Source: Tubiluchus corallicola
Lineage: Eukaryota; Priapulida; Priapulimorpha; Priapulimorphida; Tubiluchidae
Direction: 5' to 3'
NCBI GenBank assembly: GCA_030141605.1
Contig: JAQGDQ010000153.1
Location: forward strand, 381,501-445,500
DNA length: 64,000 nucleotides
A program made the position numbers and the translations under genes. Below are positions 274-54,839 of this stretch, one piece after another (the stretch's first letter is position 1; each line of letters begins with the position of its first letter). Under the pieces are notes generated by a model, which saw only the letters and a list, made by a program, of their open reading frames with translations, searched no databases and was not told where the DNA came from.

Positions 274-3200
274 GTAAGAAATAAATAAAAACAAAAAATT
301 GTTTGTAAGTAAGTAAGTAACGATTACTACTTACAGTATGCTTTGTACTATTTCAGAATCAATGACGTACAGTTTTAATTTGCTGCACTATTAAAATATT
401 ACAATCTAAGTTAATTTTTTTAGCTTGTAAAATTGATTAAACATATCTTCTGTCCTTAAGTTTTTCGAGTTGTAAATAAAAATCCCAAGCAAAGCAAAAA
501 ACCACTGAAAATAAGGCGCTCACAGAAAAAGACTGAGAACATGATTTCAGATCTAGTAAGTGCCTTTATTAATAATTTGCTAGACACAGAAGATAAATGT
601 TGATGTGTTTGTTGACTCTAGTGAGGCTGCAGTTGGTAATAAAAACAATTTTCTGGCAAAGAAACTTCGCAAGAAAGAGGCTGTAAAATACCTTGATTTA
701 ATCTACGGGAAAATAACTAGTTGTATCAGGAAAATATTATAATTAGGTAAGTAGGCAGGCACCTAGTAACAAATGGTAAGGTAACTAATAAGCACTGTTT
801 TTCAAATAATTTTTGCAGATTTTGACTGCTATGGGTAATTATATAGCTACTGGAGCAGTTTATTGGAATCCTTTTGAAGAAGTTGGGTTCGCCGGACTCA
901 CCAGCAAAGAATTTAAGCAAGAATTTGATAGATTTACAAATTACACATCTCCTTTCGGTTGGAAGTAAGTGATATATATGCATTATAATATAGTCTGCTA
1001 TATTATGCAAGAGCTGTAAAATATAATGTGCAAGATACGTTTTTCTTATAGTGGGGACAAAAGATCAAATATCTTGCACGTGCACGAAAATTAGCAAATC
1101 ATTGACACATAGACATGTCTGTCAACAAAACTTATAGTAAATGTTAGTCATTAAAAACGAAATTCAAACCCAGTTAATTTACTGCACAAAGCAAACTGTG
1201 AAATTTGCGGTAAATGTTAAGACTGACACAAGAAAAACGATGACGATGTACCAGAGAGTAATAGTGTCTATTTGGTAGTTTTATACATAGTGATGTAATT
1301 TTCTAATGTCTTGTGGCACCTACATTTTGAGGTCAATTTCATTTAACGATACAAATGGTATAAAAAACTACCCATCAATATCAATTAATATAATATAAAT
1401 TAAATATCAATTAATTTAAGTTAGTGAATAAAATAAAAGGGGCTGCCAATTTTATTTTATTTTATTTGCTTTTTAGTTAACTTCCGTTGACAAACAATTT
1501 GTAGATTACTGAAATTGCTTTTTAAACAGGTTTGCGGCTTGGGCGTTTGACTGCGCTTGGGCCGTGGCAATTGCATTGAATAAAACCGCAAATGTTCTCA
1601 GATCGCAAGGTAATCAACACTTACTACTTTCCTATTGTTAATTATTAAATTATAATAGTATGTTATACTTATGTATTGTAAGGGCTTAGACACTTATAAG
1701 CAAATTGTCATACCGTGGGACAAACATCTGCTTCGACTTAAATGAATGTTGTAAACTATACGTAACTGAGTATTTAAAATTTAGTTAGCCTATAATTAAA
1801 TAATAACTAACTTGAGATTCGCTTGTTATGTACAGGTAAACGTTTAGAAGATTTTGCTTACGCTAACACCAAAGTCACGCAGCTCATTTTCGACCAAATG
1901 AGTTTGACGAAGTTTCTTGGGGTCAAGGGGCAAGTGCAATTTGATGAAGTCGGTACCGCTTTCAGCGCTACTAGGATAGCGCAGTTTCAGGGTAAATTTA
2001 CAGTATTACATCAAGCTATGACAGATTAACATCCGCTAATTTATATTATAAGTTTTCACACAGACAACATTCTACAGTGCAGTTGCTTCAGAAAAGTGTC
2101 GAAAAAGTAATGCTTAAATATGCCTAATATCTACCCACGACGGAAATGGAAGTTGTAACTATTCATCTACTTTATTAACTTGACCAATAACCAGTTACCT
2201 GTTATTAGCAATACAAGTAGAGTACATACTTGGGACAAAACAATTTATAGTCAATTTTTTTTTGTATTTCACACTTTATTCCCGCGTGATAGAATGGTTC
2301 GCTGCATATAGTTAATTGCCATTTAGAAAAAAGTTGATATACTAGAAAACGTTTCTTTTTTCCTTTTTAGGAGATAGAGTTGTAACAATAACAGTAGTAA
2401 TACCAGGACGCACGCGACTTGATGAAGACAATTTTCTAAATGATTTTGAATGGCTTAGTAAGTAACTATTTCACATCTTACTTGCAAATGGATTATGCAT
2501 ACAGTAATAGTAGCCAAAGTAAGATTTTTGAGTTGTATACGAGTATCATAAAAAGGCCAAAAACAAACAATTCGTAAACCAATGAACTAATTCCAAATCA
2601 TAGAAAAATCATTGAATAACGACAGGATCTGATCCAAAACGCCCTACCTCATTAACCATCTCATTAATTGCATCCTAACGTAACTCTAGCCTAACTCGAA
2701 CCCTGCATAGCGTGAATTGAACTACCAGGTAACTACAAGTAAGCTAAAACTAAAACAATTATACATATTTAGTGACAATGGCATTTTCTGTGGCAAAGAT
2801 AAAAATGCTCTGTTGTTCTCCTCACACTGAATGGCTATTACTAACAACAGACATCATCTATTCAACCTGATCAGATTAGTTGCCATTAAATGTGTAAATA
2901 AAGCCGGTAACATGGTTTTGAATATAAGTGTGAAACGTTTGGTATCGTGCATGATGTTTGTCCACAGTATGAGTAATAACAAGTGTAACATTACACATTT
3001 TACAGCCCCAGATGATGCACCACCGCTGGACGGGCCACAAATAGAAAGCAAAAAACTTTTCGTGCCATTTACTCTCTACATCGTGGCATGCACTTGTTCA
3101 TGCTTGGGAATTCTACTCTGTCTCGCATTTTTGTCATTTAATGTTGTCTACAGAGAAGCCAAGTAAGAGCTGGGAATTCAATTTTTATTACAGTTTCCCT

Positions 3201-6200
3201 TCATTCCTCCAATCTTTGTTTACTTGATCGCTTTTTTCTATTTCTTCTCTATTTCTCGCATTGTCATAGTTTCCTACACTGTTTCTTCTTTGATTTTTTC
3301 TTTCTCATTCATTTTTCTGTTTTCCTCATGTCCTGGCTTATTTCTTTTCTTTTTGTGCATTTCTGTAACCTTTTTTACTCTTTTTTCGGTCTTTGTTTTT
3401 CATTTCTCTTTTATTTTTCTGCCTATCTTCTTTCTGTCCTTCTTTCTTCTCTTTAGTTTCAATTTTTTATTTTCATTTTTTATTACTTGCATTGTTTGTT
3501 TTGTCGCTTTTATAGCTCTTTTGAATACATTCTTTTCTTTCTTTTTCACTTGTATTTCTTTGTTCGCTTTTGAGTTTTATTAACTTTTCTCTTCACTCTT
3601 TGTTTCTGTTCTTTGATTTTTCGTCGCTTTTTCTTGCTTTTGTTTTGTTCGCCTTTATTTTCAAACCTTTTCTTTTCTCTTCTTTTCTATCTCTTTATCT
3701 TTTTCATTTTATCGTGCTTTAATCTGCTTGTTCATTTGCCTGATTTTTTTGGTTACATTTGCCGTTTTCTTTACTTGTATCAATTTTTGTCTTTTCATAT
3801 CCAGAAAACTGAAGTTATTTCTATAAATAATGTGGATTTTTAGGGTGGTAAAGCTATCTTCACCAAATCTCAATAATCTCATATTATGCGGGTGTACCAT
3901 TTGTTATCTCTACGTGTTCTTCGAAGGCACAAAGGAGGGCTATCCAATACTGATTTACTGCAAGGTAAAATGAAGTTGCGCACATTACTGAATATTGTGT
4001 AATGAATATTGGAGTAGTAGCTTACGGAAATAGCCAGATTAAAACTTCAAAAATTGAGCGCACTGAATTTGAACTTTATTATTGTATGACAATAGTAAAA
4101 AGTAACTAGAGAGCCCTCAGTACAGCGGGACATTGTTGTCTTAATGAGATCGACGTAGTTCGTTACTACCGCAAGGATGTATTTGTACTGACTCTAAAAT
4201 GATTCTAACTTGCTGGGAGAGCATTCGGCTAATTTGGGCTAGAGTTCGATACAGACAGAGCTGGAAGTTACTTTTTAATAAAAAACTTTAATCGTGCCCA
4301 AGTTACAATATGCGTGGATTTAAAACTTTAAATAAAAGTCGAAAATCAGATGCAGATATTTGAAGGCTGTGAAATCCTGTGATGGCCTTGCGTAGTTCAG
4401 TTATGGTTTTAATGTGTAGGATGTTTAAACAGGTCATTTTATATCTCTGAAGAATCTTAGAGTGCTTGTTGGTATGTTAGGTACTTCAGTGCTGAGTATT
4501 GGCACCCTCTCCTACAGCTACTATTTTTTTAACTTATATTGTAGTTCGAATGCAAGATAAACGTTTTAACTATGAAATTAATATTTTAATCAATTATTGT
4601 TAATACCATGATAACAATCATCAAACAATACAAACACATTCTTCCCTGTTGCAAAGCAGTTTCTACATTGGGAGCTCCTGGATCTTCGTGTGTTGGCCTT
4701 CTTCTGGCTTAGCAGGAAATCATTGTTCAAGGCAGGGTGGAAGCACAGAGTTAATCTGTTAGTAAAGTGATTACAAAGACTGAAAATAAACCATGAATGT
4801 AATGATGGGCTTGGCTGGACCATCTCAACTACAAAAATGATTTTGATAATCCACTACAAATTAGGGTATGGGCTTACGACCGCTCGATTAATGTTGCCAT
4901 TTACCCATGAAAAGCCGTTCTCGTATAAAACTGGCATTTTAAGCAGAAAAACGATGTTTATTTAAGGATAACAACCACTTTTTCATTAGTAAATTTATTG
5001 CAGACGAGAGACTTTTTTCTTGTTGCTGGGTTTTCACTAGCGTTTGGAGCACTGTTTGCCAAAACTTGGAGAGTACATAAAATCTTTACCAACAAAAGTC
5101 TGAGCAAAAGAAGGGTAAGTAGATACATTATGTCGTGAAAGAATCATGATAGCTCATTGGTTTTTATTACAACAATTGCTAATATTTTATTTATTTCTTT
5201 GTCTGTATTATAACCTGTATATTAATCTCGCTACTAAAACCATGCGAAAGTTTAGTGCTTGACCCTATAAAATAAGATAAGATCTTCATTCAAACTCGAT
5301 TGCTAGAATGAGTCATAGGCTCCTTTACATCCAGGTTGACTGCTAAAATATTACAAAATATAAATACAAATAAACATAGAAATGCAAGATATGAAATACA
5401 AATTAAAACTGTACAAACTACACATGTAGTTACAAAATTATCCAAAAAATAAATGAAATATTTAAAAGTTTTGTGGTTTAAATTCAGTTCACAAGATGAA
5501 CTAGGTTTTTGATTTTAGAAGAATGCACATTGCAATATAATTCTAAGCTTGCAAGTTAAAAACAAAACACACCCTGAACTAAAATAAACGATAAGTTAAT
5601 TTGTAAATTTGGAGTAAAATTTTTCAATGCAATGTTTAAAACACCCTTTATTAAAACTAATGACAGTCTGAGCATCTCGAGCAGTTTGAGGGAGCTGATT
5701 ACATGTATATAGTTTTGGTTCATAAACCTGGATAGAATGTTTGCATAGCTTTTTTTGCAAAAGGTACATGCAGTTCTCCTGCTGTGACACTACGCGTGCT
5801 CCCAGTTCTTTTTGTGAATACGCATAAGTATTCTGGTGTTGATTTGTGCAACGTTTTGTAGACAAGAACAGATGTATTGAATTTAATTCGGCAATCTACA
5901 GAAAACCAATTTAGTTGTCTATATTACTATTACTTCACGGTTACTTCTATAATCAACATCTAAAATCAATCTCATTGCTCTTTTTTGCAAGTGATTTAAA
6001 ATATCAATGTCATCCTTAGAACAAAAATCCCAAACATTAGAACAATACTGGAAATGTGGCAAAATGAAACTAAAATAGAATTGCTTGCGGGCTGAAATTG
6101 ATAAATGTGCTTTAGACGACTTAACAGGAACATTTTATTGCCAATTAATTTCCTGATTTGGTCAACTTGATTAGACCAACTTAGATTACGTTGAACGATA

Positions 6201-9200
6201 ACACCAAATATTTTATATCTAGACCCTGAAAAGTTATAGCCCAATACTGCATATGTTCTTTCGTTATTTGTGTTTATAGATAATCAAAGACAGACGTTTG
6301 ATGGGTATGGTCGGAATATTATTAATAATTAATCTCACAGTATTAACTGCGTGGGTTTCCACTGATCCACCTACGGTAAAGACGCTCTTTCTTGCACCAG
6401 AGGTAAAAAGTTTAATGATTACACCTTTTCTGAAGAATGGAACTTGAATGCCACAGTCTGCCAGTTGATTACTGCCTTGACACGATATGCCCAGTCCAGA
6501 TTATCTGGATCACAATGAAAGCCAGTATACTCCAGCTTCTGTCATTGTCACTTTTGCGTGACACTCACTTAGGTGCACGATGTGTCTTCAGGGACGTCCG
6601 ATAATCTAACCCGGTTTAAGTGGGTTTGAATTTCTCATTCACATCAGATGCTTCGTATAAAATTAACGCATTTATTGTCTCACTGTCTTGTTCACGTTTG
6701 GATGTACAGTTCTCTTCAGCGAGAGAAACTGTCGGAGACGGTATGACAGTTGAAACCACCTAAAAACAATGTTACCGATGTGCGTCCTTCTATTTACTAT
6801 CAGGCTCGGGCTCTGCTTAGCTATTGTTGCAAATCACACGCCCTAGCCACTCAGCTAGTCTCTTCACCCAAATACACAAAAGAGTTTTTAAAAATAAGAA
6901 ATTTCTGTAGCTATCTTACTTTACTGGTTCAACGAAAGGGCAAGTATATTTTTGTCAAAACTCAATTCGCTAGGCTAGTAGTAGGTTTGGATAGAAATTT
7001 GAAAGATCTGATGCGTATAAAACACACACAGAATTAATATATATAATATATACATATAGGCCTATATATTAGTTTAGATTATTTCTTGCTAATAAAGGAA
7101 ACATTAAATAACTGCAAGATTAAACGAATATCTGAAACACATTCTGAAATTTTTAACACATTCGTTTCATAACTCATCCAAGACAGACATTTAAAGTGAT
7201 TAGTCGGTTTATTAATATTAATTAATCTCACAGTATTCGTTCATACTTACTAACTTAAACACAAAAATTTAGTCTAGATGTCAGTGAATATCAGAAATGT
7301 TTTAACGTAACAATCTAAAAGGCGTATAACGTGACGCAAAATAGCCATAAATTTATTTATTTTGTTTGAGCTCGTCAATATTATACATTAACAATGAATA
7401 CAACAAACACAGTATACAGTACTTACTTCATGTACAGGTCCAATCTTGATTATCGAAATTGCTTATATTTCGATCTTCGGAATCTCTTTGTAGTCAATGT
7501 TCTCACAATTTCGCTCTATTTGCTTCTATCAAAATAGCTGATTAATTTCTTATACATGTAGGTTGACGAGTATGATCCAGACCTTATTCATCAGCCTCTG
7601 GTAGATGTATGCAGTTCGGAGAAACAAATGTATTTCGTTGGAGTATTGTACATAATACAGGGTCTCTTGTTGTTTTCTGGAGCTTTTCTGGCTTACGAAA
7701 CTAGAAAGGTGGGCAGTCTTTAGTGTTGAATAACAATAATTCTATAAAAATCATATATTAAGTAAATAAAACCTAGGTTTTATTAATTTCATTGCGAATA
7801 ATTTTAAAACAAAACTCTGTAATAGGTAGACCACGGGTCTGAAACAAATTTTTGTGTACATTTGAAAGCCACACGTGTGCTATGCTATACATAATCGTTT
7901 GCCAGAGGCGGAGGTACAAAAATGAGGGACAACATAGTATTGACACATCAAAATCAAATTGTCTAAAAATGCGTACTCAGTTTTTAGTACAGCGTGGTAC
8001 ACTTTTTAATACAGTGTTTAAGCCGGTATCCAATATTAAATTATACGTAAACTCATTATGTTATTGATTGTGGCAGATCTAATTAATGCTTGTATAATTA
8101 TCAAGAGTAATCCTCTAATATGAAACCAACTAGCAAGGGTGCCTCAGCCACTTGCGGGTAATGCGTTAACGTCCTCTTTCAGCGAGAGAAAGCCACCACT
8201 AATGTATTCTTTAATCAGGTTCAGCATTGTTTAATTTAGCCTTTATGCGCACCGATATTGTCCTAAATATTCAGCGTGCAAGCATTGAATCTCTCGTATG
8301 GCTTCTGAATTTTTATGGAGTAAAGTGAAAAAGGGATTCAAAGAGGCAAATGCGTAGGTCACAGGTTTCAAACTCACCGTTCAGATGTTTCACAAGTTTC
8401 TAATATCAATCGGCGTTTTTCTCTGGCTGTTATTGATAGGTGGCTAGTAGGCAGAAGTATCACCACTCCCGGCTCAATTATTATGTTAGTTGATTATTCT
8501 TGACTGGCCCGCACGTTTTGCGGCGTTTTTGCCATACCGGGTTTTCCAGCCCACATCAGTATATAAATTATAAACGCAATTACAATATTTGAAAATTGTG
8601 AAATGGGTTGAACAAAAACAAAAGTTAAGTTAACACGTACGATCTGATTTGAATACTGGATACTATATATCACACTTTATAAAATGGGTACGTATTGAAT
8701 TCAACCATATATATATATATATGGTTATTACTAGTTTAAAAATTTATATTTTAGATTCATGCATCAACATAATGTATATACGCATCTATATATTTTGAAA
8801 AATCGTTCTGTTTTAGTTTAGACTGAATAGTGTTCTCCTTGTTGTCATCTGGAGTTCCTTGAAGATCAAAGAATAAGCATGTTTAGATAAAACTCACGCC
8901 ATGAAATTGATCACCTCTTTTCCTTGGTTAGTTAGTATTTAGTCAGTTAGTCGACCGTCAAAGCCACTTAATCGGATAGCAGCACATTCACCACCTGGCG
9001 GCAAGGTAGACAACACTTTGTTCAATTACTGTCTCCGTTTATCTGTTCTCATTTGTTTTTAAGGTCAAATTCGAATCTCTAAACGATTCTCAACTCATCG
9101 GGACGTGCATCTACAACGCTACCGTGCTTGCCATCATGGGAGTTGCAGTGTGCTTCGTACTTGGCGAGAGTCCATCAGTTAAATACGGTCTCCTCTCGAG

Positions 9201-11929: not shown

Positions 11930-13568
11930 TTAACGTTGTTCATAATGATTGATAGGGACTGTAAAATGTGTAAAATGCCGTATTAGTAGCTTTCTCGTGG
12001 TGCAACCTTGGCGTGTCTGTAAATATTTTATTAATACATTTACTTATGTTTGTTACTCTTGAATAATCTGCATTAAAGCTTTTAGTTAGATGACGTCATC
12101 GGTTCTGTGCCACCATGAGTTATAAAATTTGTAAATGGGGTATAATATAGCTATGTTGCAGTGTACAATAAATCCAAATTATAAAAATAAACTCTGTTGA
12201 AATATCTGATTTAATATACACTGTAATATTAATGTTTGTTAAGAGTAGTTTGAAAGACTAAAAATTAGCAAAGAATATGGTGATTATTAGATTTTCTTAT
12301 TAAGAATTTTTTGTTCGTTAACGTGAACTTTGTCAAATTAAGCTGGTAGCGGTAAATCAAATGGAGTAGTTTCATTAGTTTAGTTCTGGAAATTTGGATT
12401 GTTTTAAGCACAGAGACATGGGCGTTGTTTCAACGTGGTGAACTAGGAAATTACACGGTTGGAAAACGTAAGTAAAGGTAATGGAGGTGTGGAAACTAGT
12501 ACCGGTAAAACGGCCAGCGTGCCTCCCAGAATAAAGCCCGAAGTCGAATGACTGATGCGCACAAAAAGTGACGACTAGTGCCATTGTCTAACAGAACAAA
12601 AGTATGGATAACTCCTAGGCTAGATCTCACCTTGGACCTCACTAGGATAAAAGTTTAAACGTAATTAGTCGAATGGAACAGGATGCTGTAGCATACAGAT
12701 AGGAACGCAGACCGAAATTCTTTTTCGACTACAAGACGTAATTCTTGTCTATGACCAGAAATTGTAATTATATCTAAGTGCACTGAATTACAAGAGAGCT
12801 AAAGTAACATAAAATAAAACTTTGCTTGTAAAACAACAAGATACTGCTACATGTTTTTGTAAATAATTATATTTATAGTTGTGAGTTACTCCTTTGTTGG
12901 ATTGGCAAAAACGTTTGCGGATATTTTACAACATAAAAGGTAAGTATTAATGTGAACTTTGCTAAGTGTGTTTGCACTATAGTCATTCGGCACCTGTTCG
13001 AAATATAAATAGGATAATTTTTGTTGCTAAGTTACATAGAGATGTTCAAGTTTATTGGTGGGGAATAAACTTCGGATTTGGCGTCGAAATGTTTATTAAG
13101 TATTGAGAAAAGAAAACTGCTAAAACACAAAAGAGGTTTAATCCATCCACCAAGGGAAACATGATTTATCTAGATAAACAAAAGTTAGTAACGTTTGCTA
13201 AAATTTATTTTTAGGCAAAACGGAATCATGGCGATTGTGCCAGAGTTAGTAAACAAAATGATGTCGCAAATGCATTAATCATTCATCTGGGTTTATATTC
13301 ACATGAATTACGTGACTTATAAAAAAATAATTGTGAATTATCTGAATGATCATGCAAATGAAACATTCCAGTTCAGCTGTCTTTGAGCTTTTAGAATTAA
13401 CGATTGAAGACTGAAGACAGCACAGCAAATGTTCTCAAAACCGACATGCAAAAATTAGTTTTATCAAAATTTTAAAGTTTGTAAAATAATAATGTAAAAC
13501 CATTTTTAACTCTATGAGGTGTTATCTTCTAAGACGTTTCTTGTATAAGATCAATTTGTGTATTTCAG
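11930..13568. other. Intergenic region, possible 5' untranslated exons of the next gene
   Basis: No coding sequence is supported. Two good donors (GTAAGT at 12470 and at 12940) follow stretches that could be noncoding 5' exons. The piece 12879-12939 also has an acceptor (TTTATAG), but no reading frame carries it into the ATG at 13578, so it would be untranslated. Confidence 0.35.
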
Positions 13569-13577
13569 CAAGAAATC

Positions 13578-13956
13578 ATGGCACCACGTTCGATTTTTCT
13601 CACCGTAAGTGTAATCGTGCTGATTCTTCTCTGTATGTTATTCACCACTAATAGTTCTGAGCTTAGAAGACCCAACAATTCCGTCCATTATGAACACGGA
13701 GTTACCCAAAAGCATGAAGTACCACGTCACACACATAGATCAACTTCAAAACATAATCTAGGAAAACATCATGTTGGTGATGAAAATGAATTCTCAAACA
13801 TTTACCTGAATAATGGTACTTATCATGTTGCAAAGGATCGTATTGGACTTGACCTCAGTTACAAAAGAAAAGGTGAGGAACGCCGGATTTTTATTCGTCA
13901 CGAGAAAGGACAACAAGTTAAGAGAAGACTTCGTAGGACGGCTGCGCTTACTCTAG
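13578..13956 (+). CDS. EGF/sushi/HYR protein exon 1, signal or signal-anchor
   Basis: ATG in a good context (ATCATGG), nine bases after a likely acceptor (TATTTCAG at 13561-13568), so an untranslated exon probably precedes it. Residues 6-25 are hydrophobic ([16 protein letters not shown]) and act as signal peptide or type II anchor. The rest is His/Lys/Arg rich and ends [11 protein letters not shown] in phase 1 at GTAAAT. The basic cluster could be a furin-like site. Confidence 0.75.
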
Positions 13957-18600: not shown

Positions 18601-21600
18601 TTAGTTAGAATCACTCGTGTGGGCGACCTAACATCGCAAATGCTGAAATTGTCGGCCATCTATAAAGTATGAACTTTTGACTCACAGTATAATCACAGTA
18701 TACAAGGTAGCTTAGTGGTTACGGCTTCGGAACTGTAAGTTGAAGGTCTCTTGTTCCAATGCAAGCTGTGTTCCACTTTTCGCATTTCTTGCCGTTCATG
18801 TTTGGTAGCAAAATTTAATTAATTGTGGGTTTGTGCCGTCGTTTATACCAATTATACAATAATCAGTATCACTGCCATAGATATGTCCATCGTTCTTGGT
18901 GCATCAAGCAGGATAAGATCATTTGGAAACAGTAAAAAAATTTGATAATTTAGTAGAATCCCTCAGTCATTCGATAACCGTCTTGTCCTCATCGTAATCT
19001 ACTGTGTCTTTTTAAGCAACAAGCATAACCCATTTAGTCCAGCAAAATGATTTTCTGTTATTTTAGACGTAAATGAATGTGAATCCGACCAACCAGTTTG
19101 CGCAACAGAAGCAATTTGCTTCAACACACCTGGAAGTTTTACTTGTCTTTGCCCTGTAGGATGGAAGTTATCTAGAAATGGCAGCACTTGTGTAGGTAAA
19201 TGTGATTTTTTTATTTTGAAAGATTGTACTGGTCAGTTTTCTACAGGAAAAGCTGGTTGGTGGAGAAAGGAATTCACATTTTTCTTTTCCACCTATTTGT
19301 CAATCTGTCTTTTTCTTGTTCGTCTCTGTTCTATTTTCTCCAATTTTTGATGCCTTTCATGTTAAATCTATAAATTAATGTAATATTGATTTTGGATACT
19401 GGGTAATATTGATGATTGGTAATGGATGGCATGTTCTTTCAGAGGAAGCGTGTCCTGGACTTGAACAAGTGCCACACGCGGTATTTCGATGCAACAGCGG
19501 TTTCCTAGGACGCGGCACTATCTGCTATTACAGATGCAAGCCAGGTTACAGAATGATAGGATCAGGTTTATTTAGATGTTCCAAATCAAAGCAGTGGTTG
19601 GGTATAAAACCAATATGCGTAGGTTAGTTGACCTAGCTTAGCCTAGTTTATTTGTAATTGCCAAAGCTTGTTCTTATTGAGGCGGTTACTTGAAAATAGT
19701 TTAAAAATACCACTAAAATTATTAAAGTTATTTTCAATCGTTTTGATTAAACTCTTCGCACAAGATTTCTCTGGAAAGAGAAATGTACCTTTAACTTTTT
19801 CTGGAAAAAAGACTATTTTTTGAGCAATACACTAAACAAGTAAAGCGTTTGATAAATCCCGTTCATGGTTAGGGGTTCCAGAATTAAATTTAAGAGGCGG
19901 GAGTATATATATATATACTTTAGCATAATAGATATATATGTTTATACATATAACTTTAACATATATATATATACGTTAAAGTTATATGTATAAACATATA
20001 TATATCTATTATGCTAAAGTTAAGATAGTTACATTATAGCACAGATATGCGCTATACAATATCAAAGTTGCTTTTTTAATATAAATTACATATGACGTAT
20101 CGCAAAAACCACACTCAAGAGTGTGTTAATATAATCACAGTTGATTAATAATACCTCTATAGCAATTCATATTAAATTATGCACTAATATCTGCCTGCAG
20201 GTTCGGAGGCTCAGGTCGAATATTCAAAACCAGTGGACAACTGGAGTTGTTTGATGAATGCAATTTTAATTTCAAATGAAATCAGTAGGCTATCTAAGCT
20301 GTTCTTCCTTCCTAGACTTAGATTATTAATTTTCCACAATGTAATCTGGTGCATACAAGTCGCGCTGAAAGCCTAGCTTGACAGGCCAACCTGTACGTGG
20401 AAATTATATAATTATAATAATAAAAAAGAGAACGAGTAAATAACATGCAAAAATGTGACGTGAATGAAATGATGACATAAATTATAGTGTTGAAATGGTG
20501 TATTGTATTGATGCTAAATATATACTAACAATCTCGTGTACATACACACATATGAGTGTAGGGAAGGAAGATGAGCAGAAGACGAGACTGGTGTGATAAC
20601 TAAAAATGATATTTTCCCGAAACCTGTTTAGAACACTCGTTTGTTGCTAAGAATGTGTAGAAGTTGTTGGTGATCGCCATCATCAAATCTTTTAATTTTT
20701 AAATATCTTTGAAATATACCTTTTTCAAAACGCCTTTTAAAAATCGATAGGGAAAGACTACATTTTATCTCATTATTTATTTTCTTCTATAAAACTGGTC
20801 CCGTACGGGTTTATATTCTGATTCAGTTTTATGAGTCTTGTTTATTAGTGAGGGGTGCATTTAATTTTTTTATTAATGCTTACTAAAGCAGCAGTAGTGA
20901 CCCAGGTTTTTCGCCGTATTTTGTTTGTTAGAGCTCTTTTGTAATTTAATATGTTTAGAATGCAGAGAGATTCGTATAAAATAAGTTATATGCGTCCTCA
21001 ATGTTAGTTGTCAAATATAAAACTATCCAGTCACAATTTTTTCAATCCTGTATAATTTTGTTTTTTGATAATTATAAAGATATCGGCGTGTGTATTCGTT
21101 GCTAAATGTATAATTTTCGAGATTTTTTATAAAAAAAATTGGAAGATGATCTGTTTTATAGGTCAAAAAGATACCGGATTTACATTTATAACGTAGCATT
21201 TTACGTTATATTTATAACGTAGTAAATCATTCTTGTTATAATTAAGAGGAAAATATTTACAATAATTTTAGTGAAGTTTATTAAGCGTCTCAAGCACAGA
21301 GTCATCAACAGCGTCATGGAAACCATGTGTACACACGCTTGAACACGTACTTCTTACACACGCACACACGCACGCACACACGCACACACACACACATTCG
21401 TACATAAATTACCTATTGAGAATATCAAATGTTCATAACGACTAACGTCCCCGTATCCACACAACCATGTCAACAAAAGAAGGAAAAATGAACTGATTAC
21501 TTTCTGATTCGACAAGTTATGATTTAATAATATTGTCGTGTTCTGTATCAGCGTAACGCAGTTACAAAAATAACTATAAATTACGTTGGTTTACTAAGTA

Positions 21601-24600
21601 AAAACGTGAACGTGGGCAACGAAAAACGTACTCAACTTTAGCAAGTAAATTATTAGTTATTAATACATTATCGGAAAACATGAGGTAAAGTAACATAGTT
21701 ACAATTTTTCTGATTCTGCAGGTTATAAATTATATGTAAAGTAGAATTTATAGTATTAGTTAATGTTCTGAAAGGAAAGGTCATTCTTTGCAAACAACTA
21801 ATGCAAATTCGTTCCTATTCAAGAAAAAAGTACGAGCATTTTAACTTCATATTTTCTGGCATCCAAATTTTGTGGCGGGAAGTGGGCCTGGGAAAGTATC
21901 TTTACTTTCCAGAAACTATATTTTTGTCGTGAATAAATTTATTTTAGAAATTTAATTACGACAAACAATACTTTCATGGAAAAGAAGTTGATTTATTTTA
22001 ACATTGTTAAACTACATGATATTTTTCACTGCTTAGATTTAGGATATGGTTTAGCCTTTATGCAGTCATTTTCAGAATTCCCCCATGCACTGTCTACTGT
22101 GTCCGACACCTCTGTTCATGGTATGATAGATTATAGTGATGTTTTCGAATTTCTGTAGATATTGACGAGTGCGCTGAAAGAACTCACAACTGCGCCCATA
22201 CATGTAAAAACGTGAGAGCTGGTTATTTATGTACCTGCAGACGAGGATGGGTTATTGCCAGAGATGGCAGGAGTTGTATAGGTATGATGAGATGTAACCT
22301 AAAGTATTATAGGAAGTAATGTTACAAATGTATTTACAAACGGTCCTGAATTATCGCCAGAAGTGTAAATTTGTGTACTATTCTTATATATTTATCTAGC
22401 TATTCTTAAATCTAAAATTATAGGGCGTTATATTATGATTACATACTCAGTTAATACAAAAGGAGTTGGATGATTACTAGAGCAATAATTAAAAATCGAA
22501 GTACTAAAATTAGTGTACACGATCTTATGTAAGCTTGTGTGCTAGTTTTGACTTCTGAGCTGATACAAAAAAATAAAGTTATTTGCGTATTTGTCTAAGA
22601 AGAACATTGTGCAAGATTACGTAAAATTATTTTGCAAAAAAAGAAGCGGTGTAGATGGGCTAAACCACTGGTCAGTTCAGCTGTAATTACTGTGGAAAAT
22701 GCTCAAGGCAAGAACTGGACTTTTGTTGACATAAAGAACTAATTATGATAGCGATATAAGGATATATATTCCTATCATATATATGATAGCGATATAAGGA
22801 TATATATTCCTATCATATATGTGTGTGTGTGTGTGTGTGCGTGTGCGTGTGCGTGTGCGTGTATGATGGGAAGTGCATATGTCTGTCTTTCAGACAGAAA
22901 CTGTTAAATGTATCTTTTACTTTTATTATTTAAAGATTTATTTTTTGCATGAAACAGACGAAGACCCACCAAAGTTCTCAGACTGTCCAGGATCCAGAAG
23001 GGTGATAACAGATCCTTACAGCCCATTCGCAAGGATTCAATGGACGACGCCCTCTGCGACCGATCTCCAAACCAGTGTGCACAATTTTACACTTTCTCTG
23101 TCGTCATCGTCGTTATCTTCTGACTTGTATTTAATTCCTGTGACGCAGATCTACGATTTTCCAATTGGCATAACTACTGTTCAGTATAAAGCAATAGATG
23201 GGTCGGGGGTCGAAAAAATATGCGTTTTTAACGTAACTGTCATAGGTAAGTATCTAGCTGTATGCAACTTAGTATTAGTTTACGCTTCTAGTACTGACGC
23301 AAAGCATAAAGAAAATTGGAAGATTTTTCACATCCTAGCCCACTTTGAAGTACGGTAAAAAGTATACATTTTAACACCTATATATCAAAGCGCTTCTGAT
23401 AATTACATAATTGGTTAAAAACTTAGTAACGACGGGCAAACCTAGCTAGTGATGACGTCACAAATGAACACAATTTTTAACAGCACAAACATTCCATGAA
23501 CGTGTCGCAGGTGTTTGCGAAAGGTTGTAATTGTGAAGATTGTGAATTAAAGTGCTATTGTCAACATTCAGTGTGATATACAAAACCTCTGCAACTTTTT
23601 TGTTTTCTGTTTCAAGTTTCAAGTTTACCGCTATGCTCACGCGTGAGTTCACGAATGTGCACACAACGTCAAAACTGAACACGCTTGAACTCAGAGGTAT
23701 TTAGCTAGCGCATAGCGAAATGCATGTATCAGCGTAGTACTAGCTCGCGAGCGCGAAATTACATTCTTCTGGTAATAATTCTTTCGTGCAAGTCATTCTT
23801 GAAAAGCCATTATGTTCCATTTTAATATTTTATTAGGCAAAGTATTTTGAGCAGCAGGATCCTGTTTTTCCTTTAAGCCTACTGCCTTCAAATTAACACA
23901 GCATTCTGGCTATGCGTTGTCACTAGAGTTAACATTTCTAGAAATTATTACTGACGCTGGGTTTCTTCACGCAGTACTGCTAATTTTTTGTGCGAGGGGG
24001 AATTTTCCCTTCTACATTATGCCGTTGGCTGTGAAGCTCAGTAAATGGAGGCTTGGCAAGCAAATTGACTGGTGGCTGCAGCTTATTTATCATACTCCTT
24101 CTGGCTATTTCTCTTACTGATGTAAGGATGAATACATGTGGAGGTGGCAAAATCACCTCTGCTGGTTGACTGCCTTATCTCAGAGAATTATTTTTAGTAA
24201 TTCTGGCTTACAATTTTGCCGAAGTGTGTATAAAAGTATCAACAAGTTATTAATAGCCATCATTAGTTTGAGTGATTTCTAGCGCCTTTGGGAATTATCT
24301 ATATAGAACATTACCATTATATTTATCGCCCATGTGTATGATACGCTATTAAGAATAGTAGTGTGCTGAATTGTCAATAAATTATTATATTAAAATTTTC
24401 AACGCTTGGGAAAGCTGCAGCCTAGAGGCAAAGAAGGAAAGACATTAGTTTTCATTTAACTAAACATACTAGATGGGGGACATTTAATGAAAACGTTGTT
24501 AGTATTTGCCAAATATCAAATATTCTTACAGATTTTAATGATTGCTAAATCTCAGCAAACATTTTTAAACATAAAATTTAACCTTAAAAGAAACAAGCCA

Positions 24601-26913
24601 CGCGTGACAAATGAAGAAAAATTTGTTTCTAATCATAAAAATATGTGACAAACAAATTGTTATATTATTAAAACTTTGATGTCATTGTAACCCAAATTCA
24701 TAAAACAATGAATTAGAGAAACAAGTCTTTAAAATATGATAATAACGAATGCGATAGCCAACTATTTTTAACGCATAAAGTGTTTCTTCTTTCACAGATA
24801 GTGAGCCACCAACTGTCAAAAATTGCCCTGATGATATTAAGGTGATTGACAAAGAATTCAGTGACGCCGTTCAAGTGACGTGGCAGGATCCAAAGTTTCA
24901 AGACAACTCTGGCTTTGTGACAGTGAACGAAAGTATCCCGAGCAAGAGAATGTTTGACATTGGTGAACATCAGGTTAGTTATGCTGCTAAAGACGCCAGT
25001 GGAAACGAAGTTGCCTGCACATTCTCTGTGACCGTGCGTAGTAAGTTTATAACAAAATGATAAATTATTGTTGGCATACTCGTATTATTTATTCTTGTAC
25101 TATGACTGAACTTTCTTAATTCCTACAATTTGTTTATCACGAAAATGATATAGCATCGTCACTGTCATTAGCAACTTTATTTCTGTTACCGCTGAGAAAC
25201 TTATAGATAATATCCTCTTCATAAGTATTTTGATCATTATTACAACGAAGGCCAACAGGTTGTGAATAAATTTATAGATGATATATTTTGGACAAAAATG
25301 ATGCTGAAGGACCAGAGATCATATTCGCATGATGACGATGATGATTATCGTTATCGTCATCTTGACCAGTAGAAGCAGCAGCAATATGTGGTCTTATTCT
25401 GAGCTGTGGATTGATGTCACTTGTTGTTTACTTGCAGGACCAGAATGTCCAGAGCCTCCATGCCCAGTGAATGGTTATGTCAAGTGCAGTGGTAGGCAGC
25501 AGGGCGATGTTTGTCATGTGTTTTGCGAAGAAGGATTTTACTTTTTTGATCCCGCCAGTGAGAGATATGTGTGTTCTACTGATTTTATGTGGTCCCCCAA
25601 TTATGCGCCACAGTGCATGCGTAAGTTGAATATTGTTACTATTTTAAGAAACATCGATGCTATAATGAACACGTGCCTGTTGTTAAGCATTATTGTTACG
25701 AAAAATAGTAATTGTATGAATTACTGTTTATTTGAATTATTTTTTCCAGCTACCATTGAACCATTAGCCGCAAGGCTAGGATATAGTGTGAAGATGGACA
25801 GCATCTCAAAAATATGCCCGCTAAACGAAAGCACAGCTTTTCTAATGGCGACCCAGTTGCAAATGAACAAGTTTGAGAACTTGTGTCCGGAAGACCGCAA
25901 GTGCAAAGTTGATGCTCTCGCAGTAACGTGTTCGGAAACCGGTGGAGTTCCATTTAATGTCAACTTTACCATTGCTGGGAACATTCTGAATGCAGGAAAA
26001 GTCTTGGCAGATAAAATGAATACAACATTGGCTCTTAGCACATATAGTGGTCACACATACGTTATGCTGTTATCAGTTAAAAGCCACCTGTACAGTCCAC
26101 TTCCAGATCCTGATGGCCGCAAACTTCTACCGAAACTGCATTTGACATGTCCGAATGGATATGCGCAGCGAAAGGAAACATGTGGTAAGTAAAATCATTA
26201 TTCAAGACAAATGGACACACGTGTAAACTGGACTGAACAAGCATCATTGTCCAAAAAATTTAAAAGCTTTTTTCGTTTGACTGCCATGTGGTTAGTTGAT
26301 ATGGAACTGTGTACTCACAAGTTTCGACATCAATTTTTTGCACTTTCAGAAACCCACTTGTTCACGCCAAGCACTTGTATCTGGCGCTGCTGAACACGAT
26401 ACAACAGAATTGCATTTTTTAAATTCTTTTGTAGTATATCTTTCATGTACTAACTTCAGCAGTTAACTCCTCTAAGCATTTTTGGTGGTTTAAGAGTTTT
26501 ACGTAATGGTATAGGAAGATGAGAGGCCTGAAGCGACCTCAATGAATATCCAATCCAGTGCAGTCTTCCTAATTGGATTTGTTTGTTCCGAGGGTCTTTC
26601 ATCACATCATCCTGATTGTCATTGAATATTTGATCAAAACGTTTGATACCTAATAGCTTTCTATATAGACGCATCTATACTTTGAGAAGCATCTATTTCT
26701 TTTTTCTGTTTAAACTTTTTCGATTCAGTCGTAACTGCTACCAATTGACTGACACAGTTTGCGTGTCAATGTTCTACACTTTCAGTGACCAAAAGCCATG
26801 AAGACGGACTTTGTTACTGATGACTTCTTATTGTGTAGGTGTCTCAACGCTGAACTAAATCTGAATATTTTTGTGTTTCAGTTCTCTGTCCTCTGGGAAG
26901 GGAGTGTGCTTAA
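13578..26913 (+). CDS. Modular EGF / sushi / HYR extracellular protein, 13 exons
   Basis: Probable cell-surface or matrix adhesion protein. Order: hydrophobic N-terminal segment, acidic linker, two EGF domains, three calcium-binding EGF domains (D-x-[ND]-E-C starts), sushi, another calcium-binding EGF, two HYR domains, a second sushi, a roughly 145-residue region with five or more cysteines, and the start of a GCC2/GCC3-type CP.GY...C..CP.G motif. Every internal exon from 16065 to 26184 is phase 1-1, the usual pattern for shuffled extracellular modules. The HYR-HYR-sushi-cysteine motif order recalls polydom/SVEP1, but the von Willebrand A and pentraxin modules are absent here. Predicted length is about 830 residues with the short second exon, or about 1000 with the long one if a one-base frameshift is corrected. 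No orthologue is claimed. Confidence 0.85.
14152..14354 (+). mobile_element. tRNA-derived SINE
   Basis: Box A TAGCTCAAAGG (14161-14171) and box B GGTTCAACTTC (14204-14214) have the spacing of a tRNA head with a CCC-like anticodon loop. An unrelated body follows, then a (TTA)n tail ending near 14354. The stems are too broken for a working tRNA. Confidence 0.65.
14943..15591 (+). CDS. EGF/sushi/HYR protein exon 2 with apparent frameshift; first EGF
   Basis: Open from 14885 to the TGA at 15437, in frame with exon 1 if spliced at GATTGCAG (14942). Encodes a second hydrophobic segment ([19 protein letters not shown]), then an acidic Ser/Thr/Asn linker with glycosylation sites. The EGF that follows ([12 protein letters not shown]...[12 protein letters not shown]) is in the +1 frame. 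Removing one base at the A8T5 run (15418-15430) would join them. Alternatively exon 1 splices to 15454 (acceptor GAAGCAG), giving the EGF in frame without the linker. The open frame and its composition favour a real exon, but either model fits. Confidence 0.55.
15651..15695. repeat. (TTA)n microsatellite
   Basis: About 15 TTA units directly after the second coding exon. Confidence 0.9.
16065..16181 (+). CDS. EGF domain exon 3
   Basis: Phase 1-1, 39 codons. Six cysteines in EGF spacing: [21 protein letters not shown], then [10 protein letters not shown]. It lacks the calcium-binding consensus. Confidence 0.9.
16268..16425. repeat. Degenerate TATGT-type minisatellite
   Basis: Repeated GTTATGTT, GTGTTGTATTATG and CATGTCATGTCATGT steps with a roughly five-base period, in an intron. 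Confidence 0.7.
16945..17067 (+). CDS. Calcium-binding EGF exon 4
   Basis: Phase 1-1, 41 codons, starting [17 protein letters not shown] supplies the aromatic and hydroxylation-site region, and all six cysteines are present. Confidence 0.92.
17225..17325. repeat. (ATC/GTC)n trinucleotide repeat
   Basis: Imperfect TCATCATTATCATCGTCGT array. Stop-free frames here encode only Asp/Asn or Met/Thr runs and are not genes. Confidence 0.85.
18409..18531 (+). CDS. Calcium-binding EGF exon 5
   Basis: Phase 1-1, starting DVDEC, with [16 protein letters not shown] and a final cysteine before the donor GTATAA. Confidence 0.92.
18700..18900 (+). mobile_element. Probable tRNA-derived SINE
   Basis: Box A TAGCTTAGTGG (18708-18718) and a weak box B TGTTCCAATG (18752-18761) at tRNA spacing, in an intron. 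The 3' end is not clear. Confidence 0.45.
19067..19195 (+). CDS. Calcium-binding EGF exon 6
   Basis: Phase 1-1, 43 codons, starting DVNEC, with [16 protein letters not shown] and an Asn-Gly-Ser glycosylation site near the end. Confidence 0.92.
19443..19622 (+). CDS. Sushi (CCP) domain exon 7
   Basis: Phase 1-1, 60 codons. Four cysteines and the sushi pattern CPGL...[18 protein letters not shown], then [12 protein letters not shown] and a W before the last cysteine. Confidence 0.88.
19917..20020. repeat. Hairpin with 44-46 bp arms in an intron
   Basis: Left arm 19917-19960 (starts ACTTTAGCATAATAG, ends CTTTAAC) is the reverse complement of right arm 19975-20020, save one extra TA step. The loop is about 14 bases of AT. 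The transcript of this intron would fold into a long stem. It may be a small MITE or the product of a local inverted duplication. Confidence 0.85.
21351..21396. repeat. (CA)n / (CACG)n microsatellite
   Basis: Runs of ACACGCACAC and ACACACAC within the long intron between the first sushi exon and the next EGF exon. Confidence 0.85.
22159..22281 (+). CDS. Calcium-binding EGF exon 8
   Basis: Phase 1-1, 41 codons, starting [25 protein letters not shown] and a final cysteine complete the domain. Confidence 0.92.
22745..22862. repeat. Two tandem 38-bp palindromic units followed by (GT)n
   Basis: Units at 22745-22780 and 22783-22818 are identical. Each starts ATGATAG and ends CTATCAT, with a GGATATATATTCC core palindrome. 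A GT/GC microsatellite follows at 22821-22862, about 95 bases before the next exon. Confidence 0.85.
22958..23245 (+). CDS. HYR domain exon 9
   Basis: Phase 1-1, 96 codons. HYR (hyalin repeat) signature: [11 protein letters not shown] at the start, the W of [10 protein letters not shown], then [17 protein letters not shown] and CVFNVTV at the end. A Ser-rich insert with LSSSSLSS lies in the middle. Confidence 0.88.
24798..25040 (+). CDS. HYR domain exon 10
   Basis: Phase 1-1, 81 codons. [48 protein letters not shown] and CTFSVTV form a complete HYR domain of normal length. Confidence 0.92.
25438..25620 (+). CDS. Second sushi domain exon 11
   Basis: Phase 1-1, 61 codons. [38 protein letters not shown] and a final cysteine. 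It has extra cysteines compared with a standard four-cysteine sushi. The EC.EPP.P.NG start is like the sushi that follows HYR domains in polydom-type proteins. Confidence 0.85.
25750..26184 (+). CDS. Cysteine-containing spacer exon 12
   Basis: Phase 1-1, 145 codons. Contains [29 protein letters not shown] and two or three Asn glycosylation sites, and ends [15 protein letters not shown]. The last motif is the first half of a GCC2/GCC3 (ephrin-receptor-like) repeat. The fold of the middle part is not recognised. Confidence 0.8.
26456..26674 (-). mobile_element. LINE C-terminal fragment in last intron
   Basis: The minus strand encodes [20 protein letters not shown], the RLRWLGH..R...D..P block after the reverse transcriptase of many non-LTR elements. 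The same block occurs at 43296-43535 on the other strand. Confidence 0.55.
26882..26913 (+). CDS. EGF/sushi/HYR protein last coding exon
   Basis: Acceptor GTGTTTCAG at 26873-26881. Joins in phase to give [13 protein letters not shown] and then stop TAA at 26911. The joined CPNGY...CVLCPLG fits a GCC2/GCC3 repeat that ends abruptly after a few residues. Confidence 0.65.
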
Positions 26914-33855: not shown

Positions 33856-35448
33856 GTAGGTAGGAAATCCACTTTTCGATACTTATGTATTAAAGCGAAA
33901 TAAGCCAAAAAGAATTTAATTAAAAATCGCATGAACAATTCGGCATAAGCGCATCATTATCCGCGTTAATAAAACACCTGTTTCAAAATTTTAAATTAAG
34001 AGCATAGTATTATTAAGTATTTATGATGTAAGTAATCAACTACAATCATTTGTTTCAAAAAATTACATGTACTGAAACCACAAAAGTATGCGTTAATATG
34101 ATAACATATGTGTTGGGTACACCCAAGTAGTCGAAACACACGAGAGGTTCCTGGTTCCAGTCTAGTCTCAGTCCCTCAGTCCTTTTCGTATCCTTTTTTC
34201 GAGTCAAATGTGATAAAAATTATCAGCTGTAGATTTATCCATGATTAAAATTAATTTCTATTTCAGAGAAGAACTAGAACTGTGTTTACACCTAATCAGC
34301 TGGCTGAGTTGGAGGCTCTTTTTGAACGTACACCTTACCCTGACGTTTTTCTAAGGGAAGAGCTTGCTGAAAAACTTCACTTGCATGAAGCCAGAATACA
34401 GGTATACTTTTAAGAGGAATGCTTTAGTGTCTCGGACTCTATTATATTGACATAATAATATTTGGAGAATAATTAGTGCAGTTAGTTAGATCTATCCATC
34501 GATGACCAATATCAATAGCGCGTAAGTATCCTGCGTAGAGTGTTGTTTATGTGGAAAGTAATTGGCGACTGACCGGCCAATGTCTTGCTTTATACAAAGT
34601 TATATTTTGTATAAAGTTTTTAAAAAGCAGCGTGTCAAAATGTACATCATTAACATAATCACTGCTTAAAACGTTTATATGAAATATGTAGGCCGGCAGA
34701 TCAGAGGATTTCAATCAAACAAATGAGGTACGAATATCTGACTTTAGCCCGGGCAAAACAAGGATAGTAACGCTGCACTTCATTTTTTGCAGTTTTATTA
34801 ATCTGCACCAGAAGTTTTGGGTATTCTTTTTGCGATTTGTTCAAAATAAGAACGGGAAGTCTAGTGGTCCAAAATCAGGATGTTTATTCGCAGTTGCTCG
34901 TTCCTTGTGTCTTCAGTGTTTGGTGTGGTCTAAACCACCTGAAGCGCAAAAAGAGCTTTATTATAGGGTGTCCGACAGACACTTGTCTAGCTCAGCTCTC
35001 TTTAGGCAATAATGTCATGCCCAGTTAAAATTCTCTTTAACTGGTACCTTCAACGTTTGATTCCGCCAAAAAATAAAATAGCTGATTCAATGGTGTCTAA
35101 AAGGTCTAATACAGTGTCTGGGATATCTGTTATCTGCACCTACAGTTCGTATGGCGGCAGGCACAACACGGAGACAGTTTCAGACAATACTTCCAATATT
35201 ACTCTAGTCCATTTTGGATCACCTGAATCATCCATCTGTAGTTCTGTATACCTTGAGTAATTTTGTAAATGACTATTGAAGCTTTGTTCGTTTGACCAGA
35301 ACCCTTTAGGCTGCTGCTCTAATGGATGGTAAGTCTTTATTATCGGTATACATCAGTATGTCAACATGTTGACACTTCAACGTAGGAATATTCAATTTTC
35401 GTTCAGAAAGAGAGAACACAGAGTTGCGAGAGACAGAGAGGCTGAGTG

Positions 35449-42868: not shown

Positions 42869-43263
42869 AACATGATATTACTACACTGACTTTTAAAATA
42901 CAATCAGTGTGACTGATAATTAAATCATATGTCATAGTAGGGTCAATATAAAGGAAAAAATAGCCCTACTCCTAAAATGGCAAGAAAACGTTTCTTGATG
43001 TTTTCTTGTAGCACTTGGCCCAGAGAATAACGTATCCAAATTAGGCCGAAATTTGAGCACTGCAAAAGGCCTAATTATGATGTAAAAAAGATGTCCGTCA
43101 TTTGATCAAAATGAATGGGCATTTAGTCTATTATGATTTTGAAAAAATGATCATTTTGATTCAAAAATATGAAACTTTGCACAGTGCTAGAACTCATTAA
43201 GGTGATTAATAAATCGAAATTCGTCCAATATGACCACAATTTTCAAGATGGTTGACAATATAG

Positions 43264-43670
43264 GTTCAGCAGCTGTAGGAAATTGACGCTTTTCAATGAC
43301 TGTAGGAAATTACTGGCAGCTAAACAACCTGACAGGATATCCAATGATGATCTGTATAATGCGGTCGAGAAGAATTGTTGGAGTAAACAAATACAAGCAA
43401 GACGACTGCAATTGGATTGGGCATAAACTAAGATTACCTCAAGAGTCTCCTCTTCCTGTAGCAATATGTAAAGCTCTTGAAACGACAAAAAAGTCAGCTA
43501 ATGACGTATATAAATATACTGCCAAAAATATTTAGCAAATACAATTCTAGATTTGAAGGATGATGCGTCGTTAGCGATGGCAGCGGACAGGAATACATGT
43601 CATCAACAGCAGGGACGTGCCATGTTTTTTTGGAACGTAGCAGCACCGAAACGACCGAAACAACATAGAT
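43264..43670 (+). mobile_element. LINE 3' fragment nested in the left foldback arm
   Basis: This 400-bp block has no partner in the right arm. It encodes DDCNWIGHKLRLPQESPLPV and then, after a shift, SLAMAADRNTCHQ. These are the WLGH..R and A.DR..W blocks at the end of non-LTR ORF2 proteins. It therefore inserted after the foldback structure formed. Confidence 0.65.
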
Positions 43671-44486
43671 GTTACAATCTTATAATACTATATCTTAGCT
43701 ATCTGAGCATGCAGGGTAATGATTTTGGTGTCTAAATATAGGTTTTCAAGGTCAAGGAATTCGTATATGATGTTTAAATGGCCTTATAATATCACCTTAT
43801 TTCAAGATGGCGGCTAAGATGGTTGCAAATGTTGCATAAAATGACAGAATTGCTCATTTTACCTTAAAAATACGAAACTTTGCACAATGCTAAAATTGAT
43901 CAAATATGGTCAAAACATGGCCATATTCAAGATGGTGTCGACAAGATGGCTGTTGCCGGCTTATAAGTATCTTTTAGGAATTGTGAACAAAGTCTACCTG
44001 TTTTGTCAACAAACGTGCACTGTCACAACGTAGCAAGGTTATATTTAAATGCTGGTGTGGTTTCTCGCAAGAATATTACATGTACAGTATTAAAAATGTG
44101 TTAGGTACACTGCTACACTCTGCTTAATGTGTGGAACAGTCGAATGCCTTAAGTGTATAGCAATTCCTGAAATTTCGAATGCTGTAGGCCATGAAAAGGA
44201 TCAGTTCTATCAGCTTTTGCTGGTTGTCAGATCTGTTTTAAAATAAAATGAATAAATAGGTTTTAGTAAATATGTAATTATTATTATAAACAATAATAGA
44301 TAGGTTTTAATGATAACATTACTTCTAAACTCACATTCTAAAACCACTACTTCTAAAATCACATAATATTTACATGGTACAAACAACACTTGTTTGGGCA
44401 CATTTACATCTGCCACAGCACCATTTCGCTTACTGGTTACAACATTTAATAAGTTGTTAACAGTCTTTTGATTTTTAGAATGCAAA

Positions 44487-44690
44487 ATGTACTGTGATTT
44501 CCTTGTCAGCCCAGTAAAGCTTTTCCAGCCTGAGCCAAATGGTGATAGTAAAGTTTATGGCAGGGATCGGTGCCTAGTTCCAACAACTCTCCTTGATGCG
44601 CAACCTGACAGAAATGATTCATTTCAGTTCTGCAATCGCAAGTTCAGTTCAGTACGGCATTCGCAATTTCATGAAAAGCTATATGTCTAA
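44487..44690 (+). CDS. ORF in the centre of the foldback element, unknown
   Basis: Sixty-seven codons after an acceptor-like TTTTGATTTTTAG (44466-44478). Contains LFQPEPNGDSKVYGRDRC and SFQFCNRKFSSVRHSQFHEK, and stops just inside the right arm. A minus-strand frame (44485-44210) abuts it head to head. No known domain; it could be cargo or remains of a transposase. Confidence 0.3.
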   Translation: MYCDFLVSPVKLFQPEPNGDSKVYGRDRCLVPTTLLDAQPDRNDSFQFCNRKFSSVRHSQFHEKLYV

Positions 44691-45509
44691 GGTATATGCC
44701 TGTTCCAGACATTAAGCAGAGTGTGGCAATGTACTTAACGCATTATATAATACTATACATATAATATTCATTCGAGAAATCACACCAGCATTTAAACGTA
44801 ACCTTGCCACGTTGTGACAGTACGTGAACGTTAGTTGACAAAACAAGTAGACTTTGTTCACAATTCCCAAAAGATATGGCACTTATGAGCTGGCAACAGC
44901 CATCTTATGGGCCAACTTGAATGTTGTGGCCATATCGGATAACTTTCAATTGGCTCCATATCCAAAATTCGTCAACCGGATGGATTTTAGCATTGTGCAA
45001 AGTTTCGTATTTTTAAGGCAAAATTAGCAAGTCTCTTAGCCGCCATCATGAAATTTGGTGATATTATGTATTATATGGGCATTATATGATTTCCTTGACC
45101 ATGAGCACCTTGAAAACCTGTATTTAGACACCAAAATCATTACTCTACTAAAATATAGCCCTTATAAGCTTGTAACAGCGATATTGTTAACGATCTTGAA
45201 AATTGTGGTCACATTGAACGAATATCGATTGTCTCCATAATCAAAATTAATCACCTTAATGAGTTCTAGCACTGCGCAAAGTTTCATGCTTTTGAATCAA
45301 AGTGACCATTTTTTCAAAATCCTTGTAGACCAAATACCCATTCATTTTGGTCAAATGGCGGCCATCTTTTTTACCTCATAATTAGGCCCTTTGCAGTGCT
45401 TAATTTTCGGCCTAATTTGGATACGCTATTCTCCGACCAAGTACTACAAGAAAATACCAAAAAATGTTTTCTTGCTATTTTTAGCGGAAAGTCAACCTAC
45501 TATGATGCT

Positions 45510-54612: not shown

Positions 54613-54710
54613 TATACTCTACAGTTGTGAGCAGATAAGAATGAATTTAACTTATTTGCAATTGTTGCAAGATTTACACTTTCTTCTGCTAAATTACCAA
54701 GAAAACCCAT

Positions 54711-54830
54711 ATATGTGCATCATAGAAATCAACGACTTCACGGCATTCAGACGCATTACCCCAAATATATGTATATATGGGGTAATGTGCCTGAATGCAG
54801 TGAAGTCGTTCATTTCTATGATGCACATAT
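54711..54830. repeat. Hairpin with about 57-bp imperfect arms
   Basis: Left arm begins ATATGTGCATCATAGAAAT, right arm ends ATTTCTATGATGCACATAT. The inner ends are ATTACCCCA and TGGGGTAAT, with a short TATATGTATATA loop. Only about four mismatches and one small bulge separate the arms. It lies upstream of WDR61 exons on the same strand. Confidence 0.85.
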
Positions 54831-54839
54831 ATATATCAA

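Follow-up and report, generated by a model that had tools for sequence, protein, structure and literature searches.

The inverted repeat in the window (the whole 64,000 nt stretch of Tubiluchus corallicola DNA analysed here) is a transposon. It is very probably a non-autonomous DNA transposon copy with foldback architecture, from a family that would insert at TA and may have become palindromic by inverted duplication, and this copy has since undergone central deletions and a LINE insertion. The family is a new one of a known kind, the non-autonomous foldback DNA transposons, and apparently undescribed as judged by literature search: we saw no named match to it in the literature on foldback transposons (Repbase and Dfam lay outside the comparison), and among the matches listed for the terminal string GTAGGGTCAATWT none was on transposons by its title. 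It adds a well-delimited foldback family to an animal genome, with two different end types as a usable signature.

Structure of the foldback element in the window

The original prediction placed inverted arms of about 820 bp at 42932..45505. The arms are real, as the best inverted match of the element scored 338 bits against a maximum of 34.6 bits in 50 shuffles, while the best inverted match in 56 other (overlapping) blocks of the window reached 170 bits. The element does lie there, with the exact ends corrected to 42937 and 45500. Its parts are as follows.

42935..42936, TA adjoining the left end
42937..45500, complete foldback element of 2564 bp, or about 2.16 kb once the nested LINE piece is subtracted; the ends match the family termini of other copies
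42937..42969, plus strand, left (L-type) terminus GTAGGGTCAATATAAAGGAAAAAATAGCCCTAC, one mismatch against the family 31-mer
42937..43263, plus strand, left arm, outer part; the LINE target-site duplication has one of its copies in the final 9 bases
43264..43659, plus strand, nested LINE fragment, a reverse-transcriptase C-terminal remnant
43669..44216, plus strand, left arm, inner part
44217..44601, centre, left over from one side of a longer mirror-image arm
44602..45500, minus strand, right arm
45472..45500, minus strand, right (R-type) terminus, degenerate, with an apparent internal deletion of about 10 bp against GTAGGGTCAATTTGCTGACTTACCCC, read by eye
45501..45502, TA adjoining the right end

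With the insert excluded the left arm measures 875 bp (42937-43263 plus 43669-44216), and the right arm 899 bp (44602-45500). The arms are identical in 699 of 803 aligned columns (87%) when aligned pairwise and 84.0% identical over 805 columns in the multiple alignment with other copies; a further pairwise figure, 787/893, takes in about 90 gap-rich columns beyond the element. The left arm also holds a 56-nt direct repeat, 79% alike. A 7-bp hairpin can form in the L-type terminus at 42937..42969 and is not significant, equal folding being found in 15 of 200 shuffles.

Copies and termini of the family

The search of the host genome (343.5 Mb) gave at least 139 aligned places of the element, with 40 of 674 first-look candidates scored and some of the places being LINE copies. 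Many other copies with the same termini were found, whose absence would by the original prediction's own criterion have refuted it, and this multi-copy family with common ends supports the foldback-transposon reading. The order of the parts is common to the family copies, and the gaps vary from copy to copy.

A terminal repeat of 12-13 bp, GTAGGGTCAATWT, is common to the copies with readable ends. It is followed by approximately ATAATGGAAAAAATAGCCC at the L end and approximately TGCTGACTTACCCC at the R end, so that the two end types differ over these 15-25 bp, and inward of the subterminal sequences both enter the same arm sequence. Genome-wide, the L-end pattern of 31 nt had 14 hits and the R-end pattern of 28 nt had 28, against 0 for the reversed-pattern control. 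Shorter patterns gave 79 L hits against 30 in the control and 60 R hits against 5. These 79 L and 60 R hits make up the 139 listed ends used below; part of the listed L ends are chance matches, as the control of 30 against 79 indicates, and ends with more than 3 mismatches lie outside the set.

Fifteen L-R pairs of listed ends lie no more than 5 kb apart and all 15 face each other; the same-type pairs at that distance amount to one L-L and no R-R. Thus 15 of the 16 facing end pairs within 5 kb consist of one L-type and one R-type end, and it is notable that a palindromic body lies between two unlike ends. This asymmetry offers a way to test if elements of this sort require an unlike pair of end sequences. 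It should be noted that the copies on C1967 and C2268 are exact matches of one another and that two copies on C533 have common flanks, hence the facing L-R pairs represent fewer than 15 independent insertions. In the first case (L052/L053) the identity includes 241 bp of flank, and three further places, L066, L067 and L071 on C1309, C1753 and C156, agree without a difference over 658-664 bp, flanks included; both sets may stem from redundant contigs or from recent segmental duplication.

The facing L-R pairs are 76 to 2065 bp long. In the 76-bp copy on C1080 a short filler joins little more than an L end to an R end, with TA on both sides, and a further short derivative of 146 bp is known by its coordinates only. 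Of the listed ends, a single L-L pair faces each other at less than 5 kb; it belongs to a second family member located upstream, about 7 kb from where the window begins (C2308:372360-374099, L065), where two L-type ends enclose arm and centre pieces and about 470 bp of other sequence.

Borders and target site

Twelve elements were read on both sides for TA at their borders. It was present on both sides in five (the window copy, C1080, C1027, C507 and C403), on one side in six (C1967, C533, C1168, the upstream C2308 element, C1024 and C1985) and on neither side in one (C1309). In a wider list, which is partly biased as it includes weak matches and loci found with a TA-containing pattern, TA is found ahead of the L-type context in 20 of 32 cases and ahead of the R-type context in 18 of 26. 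C520, C1955 and C1736 also have TA on both sides and come from a list whose search pattern contained TA. By eye, eight flank pairs showed no duplication longer than TA, including the 7-8 bp of P/Galileo and the 8-11 bp of Mutator. An element-less paralogue (L080) was found for the insertions in C1967, C2268 and C533, with a rearranged junction that is not a clean empty site. With TA at both borders in five of the twelve elements and no clean junction in L080, a TA target-site duplication is our best guess for this foldback family and is not proven.

The centre as remnant of a mirror-image arm

The apparently unique centre of the window copy is an unpaired remnant left by deletions from a longer mirror-image arm. 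In other copies a stretch of about 290 bp lies between the inner arm and the centre (at least 46 matches, with 40 of 57 candidates scored), which the window copy lacks. The inverted partner of the centre is likewise missing from the window copy; C976 has partner and flanking stretch, on both sides, and C968 has them in part. In C976, the fullest copy read, the arm, the inner stretch and the centre occur on both sides in mirror order with a 15-bp gap between the halves, hence we regard the window copy as a deletion derivative. The first half of C976 extends about 1.39 kb from an R-type end; the second half covers about 1.0 kb with gaps, lacks some pieces, and its terminus was not seen. C2205 is also a palindrome about its centre, 66.5% alike over 932 columns. 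The window copy is in this respect a clear example of how an apparent unique centre may be the deletion remnant of a longer palindrome. On the 46.5-kb contig C976 we further observed paired hits of the centre stretch (3142-3520, 6665-7043 and 12807-13869), possibly repeated copies of the element.

The original prediction described a unique centre of 530 bp with two ORFs facing away from each other. A unique centre with two genes is not supported, as the centre is an unpaired arm remnant and looks non-coding from its sequence. The two open reading frames do exist, one of 114 aa on the minus strand (44210-44554) and one of 72 aa on the plus strand (44472-44690). They overlap each other, and the frame tested, that of 114 aa, has not been conserved in other copies: across 10 aligned copies it is broken by frameshifting gaps in all 10 and by in-frame stops in 9. 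The longest frame in the majority sequence of a 19-fragment alignment of the centre is 74 aa, below the 95 that mark the 95th percentile of shuffles. One frame of the centre had a slight excess of differences at third codon positions in the 10-copy alignment (0.204 against 0.148 and 0.155), and neither a codon-phase signal nor a third-position excess was seen in the 19-fragment alignment. A Pfam scan of the centre, covering six C968 frames and three frames from the upstream C2308 copy, gave no match over the cut-off and one sub-threshold match (E 0.055). On the frameshifts in 10 of 10 copies, the short consensus frame and the Pfam scan without a hit over the cut-off, we rejected the reading of genuine genes in the centre.

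The nested LINE fragment

That the left arm is split by a nested LINE piece was predicted correctly. The piece occupies 43264-43659 and is bordered by ACAATATAG at 43255 (43255-43263) and ACAACATAG at 43660 (43660-43668), a target-site duplication matching in 8 of 9 positions. It is present at eight other compared places with 77.6-80.8% identity; ten rows were compared, with L022/L035 being one place and L028/L036 another. A six-frame Pfam scan of 43264-43659 did not recognise the fragment. The less decayed relatives L035, L037 and L039 have open frames across it, and L035, the one compared with L041, encodes a polypeptide that resembles, at 26% over 121 aa (E 1e-9), what follows the RVT_1 domain in a reverse-transcriptase frame of L041. 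Elsewhere in the window, positions 26479-26584 on the minus strand match part of the nested fragment at 73%, and a 296-aa open frame of reverse-transcriptase type at 52746-53636 matches RVT_1 weakly, short of the Pfam cut-off (E 3.4e-5).

Arm divergence and age

The window element is an old fossil. Arm identity between elements of a hand-chosen set averages 77.2% (sd 3.7), a mean in which the pair C2296_1R/C2296_2L is counted, at 88.6%, these being two facing arms of C2296. The seven arm pairs within elements have identities of 84.0, 83.2, 82.1, 81.3, 77.7, 75.8 and 68.1%, of which the two lowest cover about 300 columns. Among the other elements that retain long pieces of both arms, C1776, C268 and C507 give 81-83% and C1024 gives 77.7%. 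No other arm in the set is as close to either window arm as the two are to each other (84.0%). Among the centre copies 13% of bases differ from the majority base. These values fit arms that started out alike when inserted and decayed afterwards; other histories fit them too.

Proposed origin of the element

We propose that a cut-and-paste transposase made elsewhere would bind the GTAGGGTCAATWT ends together with the differing L and R subterminal sequences and insert the element at TA. An inverted duplication between the two ends may have produced the palindromic body, with the outer 30-40 bp staying distinct. Later central deletions would then have given copies with apparent unique centres, the window copy among them, and the LINE fragment would have entered the left arm of the window copy after these deletions.

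We consider it possible, at odds well short of even, that the family is an undescribed lineage outside all tested superfamilies, with functionally different ends and a palindromic body (arms to about 1.4 kb) in which the outer 30-40 bp were spared homogenisation. If so, it suggests an arm conversion or template switching bounded by the putative transposase-binding ends, and suggests that a pair of one L and one R end is needed for transposition.

Candidate mobilising enzymes and alternative explanations

As in the original prediction, no transposase family was recognised for the element, here by searches with DDE_1, DDE_3, DDE_Tnp_4 and MULE profiles. The host genome holds 97 DDE_1, 51 DDE_3, 8 DDE_Tnp_4 and 7 MULE matches, none of them between listed ends. 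We compared 144 of the 156 DDE_1, DDE_3 and DDE_Tnp_4 rows with the 139 listed ends; the 12 rows left out are 11 second pieces of included places and C1189:70238, on a contig without a listed end. Only one of the 144 places lies less than 20 kb from any of the ends, and it is outside the element. For PIF/Harbinger and ISL2EU the nearest of the 8 DDE_Tnp_4 matches is 6.7 kb from an end, again outside, with none between the inverted repeats. Further, an autonomous copy was sought as L-R pairs 2.1-20 kb apart among the 139 ends, with none found, and by pairing of 15-mer ends (141 hits against 80 in the control), where none appeared among the matches listed. An L-L pair 13.8 kb apart on C533 has each of its ends in a shorter element. 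The scans made, which had other aims, gave no viral sign.

The TA borders, where kept, favour Tc1/mariner-like enzymes, and the family could be a derivative of the TA-targeting Tc1/mariner/pogo group with long terminal inverted repeats, like Tc4 of Caenorhabditis elegans, mobilised by a DDE_1 or DDE_3 transposase. We rate this as a tentative option, the strongest of the alternatives and still rather doubtful. It agrees with the elements having TA at both ends, the window copy and C1080, C1027, C507 and C403 as well as the pattern-selected C520, C1955 and C1736, and with the abundance of DDE_1 and DDE_3 matches in the genome. However, 7 of 12 elements lack TA on at least one side, and no compared DDE_1 or DDE_3 place is within 20 kb of the 139 listed ends. 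To our knowledge the terminal sequence GTAGGGTCAATWT is unlike any of the Tc1/mariner/pogo group. Tc4 itself is almost wholly palindromic with a short loop and belongs to a group targeting TA-like sites; it differs in that a transposase-bearing variant is known and in its target and terminal sequence, which are unlike those found here.

An origin in the Mutator superfamily or, as for Galileo, the P superfamily is improbable in our view. Most described foldback elements are assigned to Mutator in PMC4079207, and the long inverted repeats with an internal repeated block (the direct repeat in the left arm) recall Galileo and Tetris. Yet target duplications are 7 bp for Galileo and 8-10 bp for Tetris, no match of that kind was seen by eye in the eight flank pairs, and both groups are disfavoured where no 7-10 bp duplication is visible. 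The few MULE matches also count against Mutator, the nearest by eye (C390) being 15.6 kb from a listed end and outside the element. Finally, mis-assembly of inverted repeats can occur and some contigs look redundant (C1967/C2268; C1309/C156/C1753), which might suggest an assembly artefact or a local inverted segmental duplication. The arms have diverged by 13-16%, however, and many contigs, differing in their flanks, carry this structure. With copies spread over unrelated contigs a local artefact is very unlikely; we rejected an assembly artefact and give this alternative as a whole a very low probability.

Resemblance to known foldback elements

The non-autonomous foldback transposon that we propose has close parallels. 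Tetris, a foldback transposon of Drosophila virilis (PMC4079207), has long inverted repeats (to 1,735 bp), a variable non-coding middle and no autonomous partner found, and its shorter relative DAIBAM has the same ends. It differs in that its target duplications measure 8-10 bp and its inverted repeats contain 220-bp tandem repeats, neither of which was seen in the copies read here. For Galileo of the P superfamily, PMC3573991 describes inverted repeats from 18 bp to 1.25 kb, which inverted duplication of central sequence can lengthen, and longest-repeat copies without a transposase gene. Its P-type transposase is known, and its target duplication of 7 bp has no counterpart in the flanks read here. 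The short derivatives consisting of little but ends (76 bp, and 146 bp by coordinates only) are similar to MITEs, whereas the larger copies have far longer inverted repeats.

The neighbouring homeobox gene and other features of the window

The homeobox gene predicted beside the element is real, with its exons spread out.

34267..34410, plus strand, homeodomain exon of the neighbouring gene, Pfam E 6.2e-17, 48 of 57 Pfam positions

A second exon, with WFQNRRAK, lies at about 39868, and we infer a last exon at 42.6-42.8 kb. By our reading the homeodomain is paired-like. AATAAA occurs at 42807 and 42863, and the element starts 69 bases past the end of the latter signal. Readthrough transcripts with a long duplex, as originally suggested, are possible in principle for this gene; with an arm identity of 84-87% any such duplex would be imperfect.

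The open frames at 22867-26192 resemble extracellular cysteine-rich domains, which from the translation we take to be HYR/sushi-like. Two smaller inverted repeats were also observed in the window, an A+T-rich one at 19910-20027 with 43-nt arms that are 81% complementary, and a compact palindrome at 54709-54832 with 61-nt arms, 92% complementary, and a 2-nt spacer.
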